DNA of 28,396 nt from a virus, in IMG/VR virus record IMGVR_UViG_3300044846_002809, positions 1-28,396 of that record. One strand, 5' to 3'. A program made the translations under genes and the position numbers. The notes beneath the pieces are model-generated. The model saw nothing but the letters and a program-made list of their open reading frames with translations, had not been told where the DNA came from and did not search any database. Numbering within the stretch: position 1 is the first letter of the stretch; each line of letters starts with the position of its first letter. Shown here one piece after another: positions 1-7,229 of the stretch.

Positions 1-63
1 GGTTCCGTAGTGCCTCCCAAACGTAGTCAGCGCAAAAAACTCGACGTATTACAAAACCCATAA
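1..63 (+). CDS. 3' end of an upstream gene (partial)
   Basis: The first frame is open from the window edge for 20 codons and stops with TAA at 61-63. The other two forward frames hit TAG early. The stop shares its last A with the ATG of the next gene (TAATG), the kind of overlap used throughout this genome, which supports a real upstream cistron in the same operon. The tail is basic (KRSQRKK). Too little is present to name a function. Confidence 0.45.
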   Translation, partial: GSVVPPKRSQRKKLDVLQNP

Positions 64-770
64 TGAAACCCAAACCATCAGCATCACCACCCCTTGCCAG
101 CGGCATCCCAGTCCACTGCGCGCACCTGCGCCTCTCGGACGTGACCAGCCTCATCCCGAATCCGCGCAACCCGAACAAGCACGGCGACACTCAGGTTGCC
201 TTGCTCGCCAAGATCATCCGGCACCAGGGCTGGCGCGCACCCATCACCATCAGCCGTCGCTCCGGCTTCGTCGTCACCGGGCACGGCAGGCTGGAAGCGG
301 CGAAGCTGCTGCAGGTTGCCGAGGTGCCGGTGGACGAGCAGGATTTCGCAACGGAAGCCGACGAGTGGGCGCACCTCATCGCCGACAACCGCATCGCGGA
401 ACTGGCCGACGCCGACCGCACCATGCTGCGCGACTTGGCGGAGGAACTGGACACGGGCGACTTCGACATGGACCTGACCGGGTTCGATCATCTAGGGCTG
501 GAAGAGCTTATGACGGCGGCACCGCCTGAACAGGGCGAGAATGATCCGAACGAAGTATGGGCCGGGATGCCTGAATTTACTCAGGAGGAAATTATGGGCG
601 GCGCACACTTCTGCACTGTGCGCTTCAAGAACGAAGCAGCGCGCCGAGACTTTGAAAAGCTTCTTGGCTACACGCTATCTCACAAGGGAAAGCTGTTTTC
701 GACGTGGTATCCGAAGGCGGACTTCGATCAACTCGGATCAGTGGACGGCGCACGATATGAGCAATCCTAG
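63..770 (+). CDS. ParB-like nuclease-domain protein of a DNA-modification cassette
   Basis: A 235-residue protein. Residues 20-115 look like a ParB/Srx fold: NPRNPNKH at 33-40, the GHGRLEAA box at 73-80 and ADNR at 107-110. The C-terminal part (about 160-225) carries WAGMPEF at 166-172 and STWYP at 213-217, a second domain I associate with phage ParB-type proteins near base-modification genes. ParB/Srx domains bind CTP or ATP and some act as nucleases; in base-modification clusters their role is poorly defined. The gene overlaps the glycosyltransferase downstream by 14 bp, so the two are probably co-translated. The DNA becomes visibly less GC-rich from about position 540, within the gene, suggesting that the C-terminal domain and the next gene arrived together. 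Fold call fairly sure; exact role inferred. Confidence 0.8.
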   Translation: MKPKPSASPPLASGIPVHCAHLRLSDVTSLIPNPRNPNKHGDTQVALLAKIIRHQGWRAPITISRRSGFVVTGHGRLEAAKLLQVAEVPVDEQDFATEADEWAHLIADNRIAELADADRTMLRDLAEELDTGDFDMDLTGFDHLGLEELMTAAPPEQGENDPNEVWAGMPEFTQEEIMGGAHFCTVRFKNEAARRDFEKLLGYTLSHKGKLFSTWYPKADFDQLGSVDGARYEQS

Positions 771-1587
771 CGCGCCAGTTTACATCATATCGAAAGGACG
801 ATGGGAGCGGCGCATGACCGCGAAGGCGTTGGATGAAATCAAAGTTCCATTCAGAATCGTCATCGAACCGCAGGAGTTTCCGCAATACTCTACGGTGATT
901 GACCCCGCAAAAATACTTGTCCTGCCGTTTTCAAATCTCGGGCAGGGTGGCATCCCGGCGCGGAATTGGGTATGGGAACACGCAAAGGCGGAAGGCCACG
1001 CTTGGCACTGGATTTTAGATGACAACATTGCGTGGTTTGCGCGAGTCCATAATAACCGAAAACTCCGCGTGACATCCGGCGTTTGTTTCCAATGTGTCGA
1101 GGACTTGGTGAACCGATATGAGAATGTCCCGCTCGCAGGGCTTCAATATGAAATGTTCACGCCGACACTCTCAAAGCTGCGACCGCTTATCATCAACACG
1201 CGGATTTATTCCTGCATTTTGATTCGGAACAATCTCCCGTTTCGCTGGCGCGGGCGCTACAATGAAGACACTGATCTGTCTCTCCGTGTGCTCAAGGCAG
1301 GATTCTGCACGATACTGTGCCAAGCATTCGTTTGCAAAAAAATCACCACGATGAAGATGAAGGGCGGCAATACTGATTCTCTTTATACCGGCGATGGTCG
1401 CCTAAAAATGGCGCAGTCATTGGAAAACCAACACCCTGACGTGGTGAAAATACGCCACAGGTTCGGGCGCTGGCAGCACGTCGTGAACATGAAGCCGTTC
1501 AAAAACAACAAGCTCATCCTGAAACCCGGCGTCGTCATTCCAGATTCGCCTGACAACTACGGCATGAAGCTAGTCAAAACCAAATGA
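757..1587 (+). CDS. TET-associated-type glycosyltransferase (TAGT-like), DNA base modification
   Basis: A 276-residue protein from the ATG at 757. The frame is open further upstream, to 541, but that part is a shadow of the ParB gene. The N-terminus YIISKGR (9-15), a central ILDDN acidic motif (86-90) and YNEDTDLSLR (168-177) fit the GT-A-like glycosyltransferases called TAGT, described by Iyer, Aravind and colleagues from phage hypermodification loci. They are predicted to attach sugars to modified bases, often hydroxymethylpyrimidines made by TET/JBP dioxygenases. The acidic residues would bind metal and nucleotide-sugar, and the EDTD motif is the likely catalytic region. Lysine-rich and less GC-rich than the packaging genes, consistent with transfer. 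No dioxygenase lies in the window, so the substrate base is unknown. The assignment rests on motif recall, not a search. Confidence 0.72.
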   Translation: MSNPSAPVYIISKGRWERRMTAKALDEIKVPFRIVIEPQEFPQYSTVIDPAKILVLPFSNLGQGGIPARNWVWEHAKAEGHAWHWILDDNIAWFARVHNNRKLRVTSGVCFQCVEDLVNRYENVPLAGLQYEMFTPTLSKLRPLIINTRIYSCILIRNNLPFRWRGRYNEDTDLSLRVLKAGFCTILCQAFVCKKITTMKMKGGNTDSLYTGDGRLKMAQSLENQHPDVVKIRHRFGRWQHVVNMKPFKNNKLILKPGVVIPDSPDNYGMKLVKTK

Positions 1588-3045: not shown

Positions 3046-3188
3046 ATAGGGCGGCACAACAACTCGGAAGGCTCGGCAAGGGCAAGCCCAAGACACTCAC
3101 CTCGGCGGAACGTGAACGCCGCCGGGAGTGGGCGCGCGGGCTGGCACAGCGAAGAAAGGCAAAGCATGAAGTTCCGCCGACTCGCTGA
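3042..3188 (+). CDS. 48-residue basic protein bridging to terminase large subunit
   Basis: A GTG start at 3042 overlaps the stop of the LPD29 gene (GTGA). The frame reads 48 residues and ends 23 bp inside the terminase large-subunit gene. The protein is highly basic: LGRLGKGKPKTLTSAERERR, then a WARGLAQRRKAKH helix. This Gly-Lys plus Arg-rich helix pattern resembles other tiny DNA-associated phage proteins. Overlap at both ends suggests translational coupling that carries ribosomes into terminase. No function can be assigned. Confidence 0.5.
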   Translation: MNRAAQQLGRLGKGKPKTLTSAERERRREWARGLAQRRKAKHEVPPTR

Positions 3189-5124
3189 ACAGACCCGTCG
3201 CGACGCATACTCGCTCTGGGCCGGCTGGCATCTGCGCGAGGTTCGCAAGCCGAGCGTGTGGGCCGCGCAAGACCGCCGTATCGCTGCGGGCCAATCGCCG
3301 CTTACGCACGGCGAGGATATCCCGTATCGGCACGAAGTCATGCCGTGGTGCGTGGAGCCGATGGACACGGCGGACGATCCGACCGTCAACGTGATCGTGC
3401 TCTGGATGGCACGGCGCAGCGGCAAGACGGAAGGCGTGTGCGGCAACATCATCGGGCGCACCGTCACGGACGACCCCGGCAACATCATCAGCATGTGGCC
3501 AGTCGAGGACAGCAGCGACCGTTTTTCCCGCGACGTGATCGAGCCGATGATCGAGGCGACGCCTTCACTCACGCGCGTATTCGTGGAGCGCAAGAGCCGC
3601 GACACCGGGCGCACGATTGACTACAAGCGGTTCCACGGTGGCTCACTCTACATCATCAACGCTGGCAGCAAGAGCAAGACGCGCGGCATGGCGGCGAAGA
3701 TAGTCCTGGCGCATGAAGTGGACGCCTACCCGGTGAGCAGCCAAGGCGAGGGTGACCCCATCGCGAAACTGTTCGGGCGCACGGAAGGATTTGAGGCGAC
3801 GAAGATCATCGAATCCACTGGCACCTTCACCGCCGAGATCACGCCCGATGGCGCAAAGGTTTATCGGAGCAACATCGAGATGTGGTATGACCGGAGCGAT
3901 CAACGAAAATGGTTCTGCCCATGCCGGAAGTGTGGGCAAGGCCAGTGGCTCAAGTTCGATCAGATCAAAGCCGTCGCAAAAAAAAGCGGCTCGCTTCATT
4001 TCTACCTTTGCGAAACGTGCGACGCGGATCACGACGAAAAGCAGTGGCGTCGCATGGTGGGAGCCGGACAATGGAAACCCACGGCACCGTTTAACGGCGT
4101 GCGCGGCTACTGGATCAACGGTGCCAACTCGCTATTTCCCAAAGCGAAAGGCTACACGTCAAAGCTCCATCAGTTCCACGCCGAGAACGAAGCAGCGATG
4201 GCAGCGCAGCCGGAAGTCAAAAAGGTATGGGTGAATGAAATGCGGGCCGAGCTTTGGAACCCTGACACGGAGAAAACGCCGCCGCCACCGTATCAGCCCA
4301 TTCTCGACGGGCGCGAAGACTACGCGACCGAGGCCGCAGTGCTTGTGCCAGAGCAGGCGCTTGTGCTCACTAGCATGACCGACTTGCACGCCGACCGGCT
4401 GGAGGTGGAGTGGCGCGCGTGGGCGAAGGACGAGACGAGTTGGGGCGTCGGCCACTTCGTTCTTTTCGGCGATACAAATCGCACGGAAGTATGGGAGGAA
4501 TGGACGAAGCATCAGCAGCGCACATTCCCGCACGCGCTCGGCGTCCCGCTGCGACTGTCAATGGCGCTTGTGGACGGCGGATGGCGCGTTGATCCGGCGC
4601 TTGCGATGCTGCAACGAATCCATCACACCCCGGTACCGGGCGTGACTGGCAAGGTGCGAATCAGCAAGGGCGCACCGCAATGGCAATCCGTAATCCACAA
4701 CAGATGGGGCACCGTTAAGACGACAGCCAAGGGCATCATCATCGGGACATGGGCGGCGAAGTCACTGATTTACGAACGCCTGCGCTGGCACGGCGCGAAG
4801 GAAAAGCCGCCCGGCTTCATGCACTTCGGCAAATGCTACGGCGACGAGTTCATCCGGCAAACCGTATCCGAAGTGAGCGTGTTCAAGATTATCAACGGCG
4901 CGAATGTGGAGACGTTCAAGAACCCCGATGGCAACCGCAACGAAGCGCTGGACTTGCTTGTCGGCAACCTCGCCGCGTTCCGGCGCACGCGATGGGACTT
5001 CGAGACAATTGAGCGGACGATGCGCGACGACGCCGAAGCCCTGCGCACGCCAAACGCGAAGCCGAAACCGGAAATTGACTACGCCATTTTTGAGGGCGGG
5101 CAGACGCGGAGCGGGTGGCTGTGA
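3166..5124 (+). CDS. terminase large subunit (GpA family)
   Basis: A 652-residue packaging ATPase/nuclease. The ATG at 3166 is preceded by AAAGG at a suitable distance; an in-frame GTG at 3112 would add 18 residues without a better signal. A Walker A-like motif RRSGKT lies at 83-88 and Walker B VLAHEVDA at 181-188 with the acidic pair at 184 and 186. A cysteine-paired zinc-ribbon-like segment (CPCRKCG, later CETCDAD) precedes GQWKPTAP, as in GpA proteins. The C-terminal half should hold the RNase H-like nuclease that cuts concatemers (LVDGGW region). The length fits the family. It acts at the portal vertex during filling. Confidence 0.93.
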   Translation: MKFRRLAEQTRRDAYSLWAGWHLREVRKPSVWAAQDRRIAAGQSPLTHGEDIPYRHEVMPWCVEPMDTADDPTVNVIVLWMARRSGKTEGVCGNIIGRTVTDDPGNIISMWPVEDSSDRFSRDVIEPMIEATPSLTRVFVERKSRDTGRTIDYKRFHGGSLYIINAGSKSKTRGMAAKIVLAHEVDAYPVSSQGEGDPIAKLFGRTEGFEATKIIESTGTFTAEITPDGAKVYRSNIEMWYDRSDQRKWFCPCRKCGQGQWLKFDQIKAVAKKSGSLHFYLCETCDADHDEKQWRRMVGAGQWKPTAPFNGVRGYWINGANSLFPKAKGYTSKLHQFHAENEAAMAAQPEVKKVWVNEMRAELWNPDTEKTPPPPYQPILDGREDYATEAAVLVPEQALVLTSMTDLHADRLEVEWRAWAKDETSWGVGHFVLFGDTNRTEVWEEWTKHQQRTFPHALGVPLRLSMALVDGGWRVDPALAMLQRIHHTPVPGVTGKVRISKGAPQWQSVIHNRWGTVKTTAKGIIIGTWAAKSLIYERLRWHGAKEKPPGFMHFGKCYGDEFIRQTVSEVSVFKIINGANVETFKNPDGNRNEALDLLVGNLAAFRRTRWDFETIERTMRDDAEALRTPNAKPKPEIDYAIFEGGQTRSGWL

Positions 5125-5144
5125 AAAGAAATTAAAAATAACCC

Positions 5145-5173
5145 TTGCGTGCGGAAACGCTTTAGAGAATACT
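5145..5173 (+). promoter_or_regulatory. candidate promoter after terminase (TTGCGT-17-AATACT)
   Basis: TTGCGT at 5145-5150 and AATACT at 5168-5173 are 17 bases apart, after an A/T-rich stretch (AAAAATAA). The hexamers match sigma70 only moderately (3/6 and 4/6). The segment before and through the -35 resembles one at 27052-27068, which raises its credibility. It would drive the accessory island. Confidence 0.3.
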
Positions 5174-5181
5174 GCCCGCAC

Positions 5182-5343
5182 ATGAGCATTCAACTTCAAC
5201 AATTTTCGGCAGGGCTCGGCGCGGCGGGGCAGGGCGGGGCGGGGCAGGGCTCGGCCCGGCAGGGCGCGGCGGGGCCAGGCATGGCATGGCAGGGCAAGGC
5301 AATTACGAGACACGCGGGCGGTAACAGCGTGACAAATTTATGA
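5182..5343 (+). CDS. possible leader ORF reading through the first GGCNN array
   Basis: An ATG at 5182 opens 53 codons that cross the whole pentamer array and end at 5343, overlapping the ATG of the T5orf172-type gene (ATGA). Because the unit is five bases, translation cycles through three frames and yields a five-residue periodic Gly/Ala/Gln-rich peptide (QGGAG, QGSAR, QGAAG). No ribosome-binding site is seen. It may be translated only as a coupling leader, or not at all. The exact overlap with the next start is the one argument in its favour. Confidence 0.2.
   Translation: MSIQLQQFSAGLGAAGQGGAGQGSARQGAAGPGMAWQGKAITRHAGGNSVTNL
5208..5302 (+). repeat. degenerate pentanucleotide array (GGCNN)19
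   Basis: Nineteen consecutive five-base units, every one beginning GGC, with the last two bases varying (AG, TC, GC, GG, CC, CA, AT, AA). No unit breaks phase. The array ends with GGCAA twice. It sits between terminase and the T5orf172-type gene. It shares the 18-base core GGCGCGGCGGGGCCAGGC (5263-5280) and an AATTT...TCGGCAGGG lead-in with the array at 6184. Confidence 0.93.
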
Positions 5344-5852
5344 GCGGACACGTCTATTTTTTCCACAACGGCAGGCATTGCAAAATCGGCTACACGACGC
5401 CCGACTTGAAGCGCCGCCTTTGGGCCGCGCATGTGTGGAGTCCGCACGCGCTGAATATCGTCGGCACGATATTCTCAGAATTTCCCGATCAACTCGAAAA
5501 AGCGATACACCTACAACTGGCACATCGCAGACTCGTAAAACCAAGCGGGAACGGCGAATGGTTTGACCTGACCCTCGACGAAACAACCAAGGTCATCACA
5601 GAAAACAAAAATGGACAACTCAGACAGTATCATCACAGCGAAGCTCACGGGCATCCGGCCCATTATGTTCGACCGCTACGGCGGGGACAACAAGACCAAG
5701 CTGGAGGACTTGGACAAGATGTATTGCGACGAGCATGGGACGTGTGGAATCCCCGTGCTCAACGTGTTCAGCCTCCTGTCAGCGGAAAACACGCCATCGG
5801 TTGCGAAGCGTTTTTACGGCAAGCAGGGCCGGGACGTGGCGCAGGGTATTAA
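5340..5852 (+). CDS. T5orf172/MUG113-type (GIY-YIG-like) protein
   Basis: The ORF encodes 170 residues, of which only about the first 90 look like a folded domain. HVYFFHNGRHCKIGYTTPDL near the N-terminus is followed by an arginine pair, then a leucine-glutamate-histidine segment (QLEKAIHLQL) and GEWFDLTLDE. This is the T5orf172/MUG113 pattern, a GIY-YIG-related fold found in phage DNA-binding or nuclease proteins. After residue 90 the frame runs 242 bp into the next gene and the sequence becomes shadow-like (His/Arg/Gly-rich), so the original stop was probably lost. It starts at an ATGA overlap with the ORF crossing the repeat. Function in DNA processing is inferred. Confidence 0.6.
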   Translation: MSGHVYFFHNGRHCKIGYTTPDLKRRLWAAHVWSPHALNIVGTIFSEFPDQLEKAIHLQLAHRRLVKPSGNGEWFDLTLDETTKVITENKNGQLRQYHHSEAHGHPAHYVRPLRRGQQDQAGGLGQDVLRRAWDVWNPRAQRVQPPVSGKHAIGCEAFLRQAGPGRGAGY

Positions 5853-6171
5853 GTCGTTCTGCAACATCGAGGCGGTCGGCGGGGACGATCCGCTTTTTTC
5901 GCCGCTTCTGGACGAGGACGGAAAGCCCTACAAGAGCAACGATCCGCGCATCAAGATCATGAACCACGTCGCACGTCTCGCGAAGGGCATTCCAAACCCG
6001 AAGACGCGCCCGATGATTCCGACCGGGTGGAGCGTTTCGTTTCGCTTCGAGCTTCAACCGAGCGAGCTTTTGAACGAGGCGACGCTGCGGAAGATGATCA
6101 CGCAGGGCGGCATCCTCGGACTCGGCACGTTCCGCCCTATCTTCGGGCGATACAAGGTGACGTGGCTGTGA
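5611..6171 (+). CDS. conserved phage protein of unknown function
   Basis: A 186-residue protein. I recognise the general pattern from phages and prophages: an N-terminal 'I.P.MFDRY' segment (residues 15-24), a middle segment beginning PSVAKRFYGKQGRDVAQG, a PNPKTRP turn followed by an amphipathic strand, and a C-terminal glycine-rich GILGLGTFRPIFGRYKV. The family has no established role that I know. The terminal Gly-rich loop resembles those of RAMP/ferredoxin-like folds, but that is only an impression. Its 5' third overlaps the extended reading frame of the T5orf172-type gene. It is followed at once by the second GGCNN array. Confidence 0.65.
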   Translation: MDNSDSIITAKLTGIRPIMFDRYGGDNKTKLEDLDKMYCDEHGTCGIPVLNVFSLLSAENTPSVAKRFYGKQGRDVAQGIKSFCNIEAVGGDDPLFSPLLDEDGKPYKSNDPRIKIMNHVARLAKGIPNPKTRPMIPTGWSVSFRFELQPSELLNEATLRKMITQGGILGLGTFRPIFGRYKVTWL

Positions 6172-6183
6172 GTTAATTTCCTC

Positions 6184-6273
6184 GGCAGGGACTGGCGGGG
6201 CCGGGCACGGCGAGGCAAGGCTCGGCACGGCGCGGCGGGGCCAGGCGCGGCTTGGCGCGGCAAGGCAAGGCAA
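6184..6273 (+). repeat. degenerate pentanucleotide array (GGCNN)18
   Basis: Eighteen five-base units, 17 starting GGC and one (the second) reading GGACT, all in one phase. The array opens with GGCAG and closes with GGCAA three times. It shares the 18-base core GGCGCGGCGGGGCCAGGC (6229-6246) with the array at 5208; elsewhere the variable pairs differ. It lies 12 bp after the stop of the gene at 5611. Confidence 0.93.
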
Positions 6274-6464
6274 ACACAAGGGCGGCGCTGGCAACGGTGC
6301 CGCCCTCAGCTTTGCGCTTGCAAAGGCCGCGCGAGTGGTGCAATGTCGCGGCGTTGCCAATCATGGTGACGCGCCGGTTTCCTCCGGTGAAGCGACTTTT
6401 CTACGCCCCGCTTGTGCCGTGCTCATTCGAGCCGGGAGGAACGCAAGCGGGGCAACTTTTGTCT
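6274..6464 (+). promoter_or_regulatory. structured leader of the winged-helix gene
   Basis: This non-coding stretch holds two inverted repeats. GGGCGGC (6280-6286) pairs with GCCGCCC (6299-6305). A stronger 12-base stem pairs 6405-6416 with 6442-6453 (GCCCCGCTTG against CAAGCGGGGC plus two inner pairs, one a wobble). The second stem is followed by AACTTTTGTCT and then the ATG at 6465, which looks like a weak intrinsic terminator or attenuator. A GGAGGA lies in its loop, too far from the ATG to act as a normal ribosome site. Confidence 0.5.
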
Positions 6465-7229
6465 ATGAAATCATCCTGTATCCAACACCCCGCAAGCGAA
6501 TCCCTGCTGATCATTCGGCAGTGGCAAATCGAGGCGACCGGAACCACTTGTGCCGCCGCCCTGCTGTCTTTTTTCGAGTATTGGCATGACGTAAAGCTCG
6601 GAATGCGGGAGAAGGCGCGGCAGGCCAACGCGGTTGCGGTGAGTCACGGCGACAACGGAACCCAAGACGCGAGCCTTTACCAGTTCCACACTGCCGAGGA
6701 ACTGCACTCCGGCATCATGGCGCTCTACAATAAACGGAGCATCCGCGAAGCGATTTTGAGGCTCACCGAGATGGGGTTTATCTCTGTGCATCGTAACCCA
6801 AACAGCCGCTACAAGTTCGACAACACGCGGCACTTTCTTTTCTACCCTGAAGCGGTGAACAAATGGCTCTCCCAAAGGACATGTGGCAAAAAGGACCGAC
6901 GAGAGAACCAAAAGGCGCGACCATCGAACCAAAAGGACGGAACAATACCTAAGACTTCCTCTGAGACTTCTTCTGAGACTTCAAAGAAAGAAAAGGGTGC
7001 TTTTGCAAAGCACCGATTGTTTTTCGGAGAAAAAAAGCCATTGCATCCGTATCCGACTTCGGAGGAAGCTATGAACGAGACGCTTGAACATCACGGCATA
7101 GAACCGAATCCTGATTATGACGGCAACTTCTTCGCCGTGATGCAGAAATCCGGCTGGCTCATCCGAGGCAGGCCGGTGCATGATTGGATCGCCACGTATG
7201 CCGCGAGGCTCGCGAAAACATCACCCTAA
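6465..7229 (+). CDS. winged-helix protein, possible replication or regulatory DNA-binding protein
   Basis: A 254-residue protein from the ATG at 6465; the frame is open back to 6252 but there it reads through the repeat array. Residues 24-135 look like a winged helix: AALLSFFEYW, then FHTAEELHSGIMALYNKRSI, AILRLTEMGF and a wing NPNSRYKFDNTRHFLFYPEA. The middle (140-195) is a lysine/serine/threonine-rich linker. The C-terminus (FFAVMQKSGWLIRGRPVHDW) resembles the ends of phage replication-initiator-type proteins. No enzymatic motif is seen. Its place in the island between terminase and portal is odd for a replication gene. A strong hairpin just before the start suggests control at the leader. 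Confidence 0.55.
   Translation: MKSSCIQHPASESLLIIRQWQIEATGTTCAAALLSFFEYWHDVKLGMREKARQANAVAVSHGDNGTQDASLYQFHTAEELHSGIMALYNKRSIREAILRLTEMGFISVHRNPNSRYKFDNTRHFLFYPEAVNKWLSQRTCGKKDRRENQKARPSNQKDGTIPKTSSETSSETSKKEKGAFAKHRLFFGEKKPLHPYPTSEEAMNETLEHHGIEPNPDYDGNFFAVMQKSGWLIRGRPVHDWIATYAARLAKTSP

Follow-up and report, generated by a model that had tools for sequence, protein, structure and literature searches.

The question raised by this locus is what a tailed phage does with two arrays of a pentamer in which three bases are fixed and two vary. The window analyzed, by which we mean the whole stretch of 28,396 nucleotides (IMG/VR record IMGVR_UViG_3300044846_002809), is a fragment of such a phage. As stated in the initial annotation, two phase-perfect GGCNN arrays with one nonconforming unit were counted, both on the forward strand. 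The first (5208-5302) has 19 perfect units by direct count, with the dinucleotides in the order NN = AG TC GC GG AG GG GG AG TC CC AG GC GG CA AT AT AG AA AA. The second (6184-6273) has 18 in-phase units, of which unit 2 is deviant (GGACT) and the 16 from 6194 onward are perfect, with NN = AG CT GG CG AC GA AA TC AC GC GG CA GC TT GC AA AA AA. The 18-mer GGCGCGGCGGGGCCAGGC reported as common to both arrays was located at 5263-5280 and 6229-6246; once the fixed GGC is set aside, what the arrays share there is the dinucleotides GC GG CA, three in all, which by our estimate is close to chance for two arrays of such lengths. The similar lead-in was also found again, as AATTTTC/AATTTCCTC 5' of the window arrays and as AATTTYAC before arrays in relatives. 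Neither array falls within a main gene: array 1 comes after terL and array 2 after the stop codon at 6171, and they flank the gene of a 186-aa protein (5611-6171).

Chance does not produce such arrays at this composition: 200 surrogates drawn from a first-order Markov model of the window had longest GGCNN runs of 2-4 units. When all fixed triplets at periods 4-9 were scanned in the real window, only the two GGCNN arrays reached 7 or more units. A coding-repeat reading was rejected. Recombination sites flanking a mobile cassette were also considered. The window arrays do bracket genes, but other loci carry several arrays solely downstream or solely upstream, so flanking is not the rule.

The association of the arrays with the 186-aa protein was examined from both directions. 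A query of eight GGCNN units, holding no protein information, matched at least 119 contigs in IMG/VR, at loci of 39-76% G+C. A homologue profile seeded with the window protein and run on these pattern-selected contigs found a homologue in 82 of 119 among the matches listed. Among the same matches, with the window's own included, 234 of the 235 arrays of at least 7 units near a homologue gene were on the strand of that gene (172 downstream and 63 upstream of it), and several of the 37 contigs without a homologue were true microsatellites or truncated. Thus the proposed search of viral contigs led to arrays that adjoin one protein family, although some matches elsewhere (L037, L046, L093 and L101) are true microsatellites. 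Conversely, the window protein as sole query retrieved 10 contigs at 76-97% identity, all with co-oriented arrays, and a nine-sequence protein alignment as query yielded 80 loci, the ten contigs included. Arrays of 7 or more units were present within 2 kb at 73 of these 80 loci, with 193 arrays on the same strand as the gene and none on the opposite strand; of the remaining seven loci, five had shorter arrays and two were at contig ends. No arrays of that kind were found in 54 unrelated viral control loci (491 kb). The background frequency that the initial annotation had named as the refuting outcome was therefore seen neither in the control loci nor in the surrogates, which gave at most 4 units.

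Array architecture varied among the relatives. Thirty percent of the 193 arrays in protein-selected relatives exceeded 16 units, with a maximum of 53, and a few arrays of L229-L308 terminated in long GGCAA runs. In L121, L134 and L054 about a dozen short arrays lie near the protein gene, tens of bases apart, which is a multi-guide architecture unlike that of the window. Four relatives were found on genome contigs, namely a Patescibacteria MAG, a Methylococcaceae MAG, Paraburkholderia phenoliruptrix and Candidimonas nitroreducens. The array beside the homologue gene in P. phenoliruptrix (L159:9840-9930) contains many deviant units (GGA, AGC, TGC), and either this array is decayed or the consensus is looser.

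The 186-aa protein (5611-6171, forward strand) matched no Pfam or NCBIfam model, and its sole match was phrog_4652, annotated as 'unknown function'. An AlphaFold2 model (pLDDT 93.5, pTM 0.87) predicted, with confidence, a Cas7/Csm3-like RAMP fold. The best structural matches in the PDB were Csm3-type subunits (Z 12.8, 159 residues, rmsd 3.5), and among the matches listed all 50 entries were CRISPR Cas7-like/RAMP proteins. W140, G170, G172, R175 and G179 were invariant in a 24-row family alignment, and the G-loop of the window protein reads GGILGLGTFRPIFGRY. The family HMM, although built without SUSP1, matched the Vipr protein (agp039) of Escherichia phage SUSP1 (NC_028808) at 5.4e-30; hhalign of the window family against the SUSP1 protein gave 2.5e-20, and the sole PDB match of the family profile was 36pp, 'SUSP1 Vipr protein' (E 2e-23). 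The 195-aa SUSP1 protein likewise belongs to phrog_4652, and GGYNN arrays adjoin its gene in the SUSP1 genome. By these profile comparisons the window protein is homologous, at low sequence identity, to SUSP1 Vipr, whose structure is solved, and its gene is referred to below as vipr. No match to vipr was found among isolated phages, and TerL had no close match there (best under 60% identity).

VIPR was described in a 2026 preprint as a small phage RAMP protein (Vipr), with an RRM core and a G-loop, together with vrRNAs composed of GGY/NN pentamers and a 3' tail, whose genes occupy the intergenic regions on either side of vipr and share its strand (PMC13142463). The system was studied experimentally in SUSP1 and P. 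fulva, and the SUSP1 homologue targets DNA (PMC13142463). It reads double-stranded DNA via the NN pairs, skipping one base, and is aimed at competing phages; the NN are hypervariable, the GGY is conserved, and a structured, conserved 3' tail follows the repeats (PMC13142463). Taking together the linkage from pattern to protein and from protein to pattern, the RAMP fold, the homology to SUSP1, the random NN, the covarying tail described below and the published description, we consider that the window locus is very probably a VIPR locus, that is, a phage-encoded RNA-guided system, and that its GGCNN arrays are almost certainly VIPR guide-RNA genes. By homology to what was studied in SUSP1 and P. 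fulva (PMC13142463), transcription of each array would yield a vrRNA; this RNA would be covered by Vipr subunits that hold every GGC and leave the two N bases free; the NN pairs would base-pair with double-stranded DNA in a one-base-skip code, (xNN)n; and the Vipr-vrRNA complex would block competing phages or satellites. The earlier suggestion of a fixed GGC with free spacers accordingly needs amending in its second half, the GGC being fixed while the NN pairs, by homology to VIPR, would carry targeting information.

With SUSP1 the window shares a homologous RAMP protein of about 190 aa, co-oriented arrays on both sides of vipr, a 3' tail after the array and a small gene in the locus that in the window is a candidate accessory. 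The window GGC is nearly invariant, whereas SUSP1 has mostly GGT. Its guides have 18-19 units, as against the 9-16 repeats per vrRNA published for the clades of SUSP1 and P. fulva, a range that the preprint does not make a condition for all seven types (PMC13142463). The tail in the window branch is a short covarying hairpin with the loop GGGCGG-N-AACA, unlike that of SUSP1. The small gene of the window encodes a GIY-YIG protein and precedes vipr, whereas the small gene of SUSP1 (agp038) is unrelated to it and lies downstream of vipr. The discoverers proposed that VIPR is older than CRISPR (PMC13142463). Compared with the Cas7-family RAMPs of CRISPR types III and VII (Csm3 and relatives), the window protein has in common the fold, a glycine-rich loop and a guide-coating backbone in regular register, but sequence identity in structural alignments is about 8-16%, and the window offers a single small phage protein without cas genes, CRISPR repeats and spacers or a contiguous guide. 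Neither a CRISPR array with contiguous spacers nor a cas operon was found in the window, where the neighbors are phage structural genes. TIGR-Tas (tandem interspaced guide RNA), which has been reported in phages, is likewise RNA-guided and has tandem arrays, but its units are longer and its protein has a Nop5 domain; no domain of that type was seen in the window locus.

Between array 1 and vipr lies a GIY-YIG family ORF (5340-5852, forward strand) with a T5orf172/MUG113 domain at residues 3-91 (Pfam PF13455, 2.8e-12; PF10544, 5.8e-9). Of the 80 loci selected by protein, 45 carry a GIY-YIG gene immediately 5' of vipr; they are the closest of the set, filling ranks 1-45 except for one contig end, with one more further down. 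The window locus thus belongs to a VIPR subclade in which a GIY-YIG gene adjoins vipr on its 5' side. The 3' part of this ORF overlaps vipr out of frame, over 242 nt in the window; the overlap is open in all 11 close relatives (224-242 nt), the other frame being open too. The minimal VIPR locus includes an accessory gene (vap, numbered vap1-6), and predicted enzymes, nucleases or helicases among them, are found in types III-V (PMC13142463). Judging from its domain, the GIY-YIG protein is probably a candidate Vipr accessory that binds or cuts DNA, which is a guess. It is conceivable, although we regard it as unlikely, that the GIY-YIG branch is a distinct, undescribed VIPR type in which the nuclease of the overlapping ORF would cut the DNA addressed by guides of 18-50 units, with cleavage and not repression alone as the outcome.

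The arrays of this branch are followed by structured tails. On the forward strand, array 1 is trailed at 5303-5334 by ACGAG, a stem CACGC (5311-5315), the loop GGGCGGTAACA (5316-5326) and the opposing stem GCGTG (5327-5331). The motif ACGAG-stem-GGGCGG(N)AACA-stem' trails arrays preceding the GIY-YIG gene and also internal arrays. Across 13 tails the stem occurred as CACGC/GCGTG, TCGAC/GTCGA, GCACC/GGTGC, ACCTC/GAGGT, GAACC/GGTTC and GTCGC/GCGAC; pairing was complete in all 63 cells, compared with 13-38% in slid controls, and compensatory changes were present at four of the five stem pairs. The covariation score was 1.010 versus 0.173 ± 0.058 in shuffles. Array 2 is followed by a strong 12-bp hairpin (6279-6306, forward strand; -26.7 kcal/mol, z -3.2), which is kept in relatives L147, L148, L149 and L151-L153 and has 3' of it TCAGTTTT in the relatives and TCAGCTTTG in the window; it may be the tail, possibly a terminator. 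Rfam gave no match at the gathering score. Since the arrays show strand biases of 234:1 and 193:0 and are followed by a covarying hairpin, they most likely function as RNA, transcribed together with the protein gene beside them, and not as a bare DNA site. The annotation had offered selection on GGC, for example within a repeating protein- or RNA-binding site; the selected GGC and the bound array agree with these data, and a bare DNA site does not. The partner gene between the two arrays had escaped the annotation.

Unit content was compared, as had been proposed, using the last upstream array across nine relatives whose vipr nucleotide identity averaged 0.82 (range 74-95%). NN identity between relatives was 0.31, versus 0.27 expected by composition, and GGC identity was 1.0, a value which is partly a consequence of how arrays were defined. 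The last three units were mostly AA across relatives (0.66 identity) and therefore may belong to the constant part. The position of array 1, 309-310 nt before vipr, was the same in most relatives. In L151-L153 related arrays differed by whole units, so slippage or recombination contributes to array turnover. In the guide at L108:620-729 a four-unit block (AT AG CT TC) is repeated exactly, which is evidence that arrays change by unit duplication.

Searches for natural targets were negative. Four exact 8-unit xNN scans of IMG/VR with both guides gave matches whose flanks agreed at chance level only, and 300 guides against 2.4 Mb of DNA showed no skip-1 excess over shuffled guides. A weak skip-1 excess in one local all-versus-all comparison (skips 0-3) was gone under a proper shuffled null, and the guides of two bacterial relatives found no target in 268 and 119 genomes of the relatives' family and genus. 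As no natural target was found in these searches, the one-base-skip rule for the window member is inferred from SUSP1.

The module occupies an accessory insertion (5128-7213, forward strand) that separates the following head gene from terL (3112-5124; PF05876/PF20454), which encodes the large terminase subunit. In L162, L163 and L168, whose TerL is 96-99% identical, the interval 5128-7213 is missing, and TerL relatives at 94-99% identity (L161-L164 and L168) have neither vipr nor arrays in the stretch that runs from terL to the following head gene. L161 retains only the lead-in as far as 5199 and, from 6293 onward, the tail (L161:3940-3970), edges that look like a deletion scar. A DnaD-like helicase-loader gene (about 6365-7225) is absent in L149 and in L148 lies on the opposite side of the module, upstream of the arrays. 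This gene is a separate insertion. Because the system is absent in relatives with near-identical TerL, VIPR is accessory cargo, an optional cassette beside terL in this phage group. Elsewhere in the window (63-1587) a MTase/ParB-like protein gene is followed by one for a TET-associated glycosyltransferase (TAGT, PF20691, 1.6e-41), a pair suggesting that the phage DNA is hypermodified.

These results bear on several other explanations. The arrays could be RNA scaffolds that a Vipr-like protein binds for another job, such as sequestering RNA or serving the phage's own packaging or regulation, without guided DNA targeting. The site between terL and portal-side genes would suit this, as would the failure to find a target for any guide of the clade in the searches run. 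A fixed scaffold would not, however, need NN at random identity among phages with 74-95% identical vipr; the cassette is absent from relatives with 96-99% identical TerL and is therefore not needed for packaging; and the SUSP1 homologue has been shown to target DNA (PMC13142463). We consider the scaffold very improbable. A different skip length or contiguous pairing in the GIY-YIG branch we rate as improbable: the authors' test of the one-base rule concerned the SUSP1 clade (PMC13142463) and no skip-1 excess was seen in window-clade guides, but the fold, the GGC/NN period and the G-loop invariants (W140, G170, G172, R175, G179) are the same.

It is highly improbable that the arrays act at the DNA level, either as spaced GGC protein-binding sites or as a GpC modification hotspot for the phage's DNA-modifying enzymes. 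GGC does contain GpC, and the window does encode the TET-associated glycosyltransferase and the MTase/ParB-like protein, but strand biases of 234:1 (among the matches listed) and 193:0, a covarying RNA hairpin and the company of vipr in loci of 39-76% G+C all argue against it. The whole-unit differences in L151-L153 and the few pattern matches elsewhere that are truly microsatellites would fit a functionless microsatellite or slippage product. Such a product would be expected at background rate away from vipr, whereas control loci gave 0 of 54, and the arrays consist of non-identical units, hold GGC constant against random NN and are closely tied to a single gene family. We give this explanation practically no weight, and the original judgment that the arrays are neither microsatellite nor coding repeat is upheld.

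The preferred reading remains a VIPR locus with two guide-RNA genes. VIPR, a new way of recognizing DNA by means of an RNA guide, has been known since the 2026 preprint (PMC13142463). What the window branch adds is a GIY-YIG gene as its candidate accessory, guides of greater length and a tail whose hairpin covaries. The present locus was picked from raw sequence by a reader that had neither tools nor annotation. The clean empty sites indicate gain and loss of the system among phages that are otherwise nearly identical, and the 80 loci provide a comparative set for guide length, tail and nuclease function.
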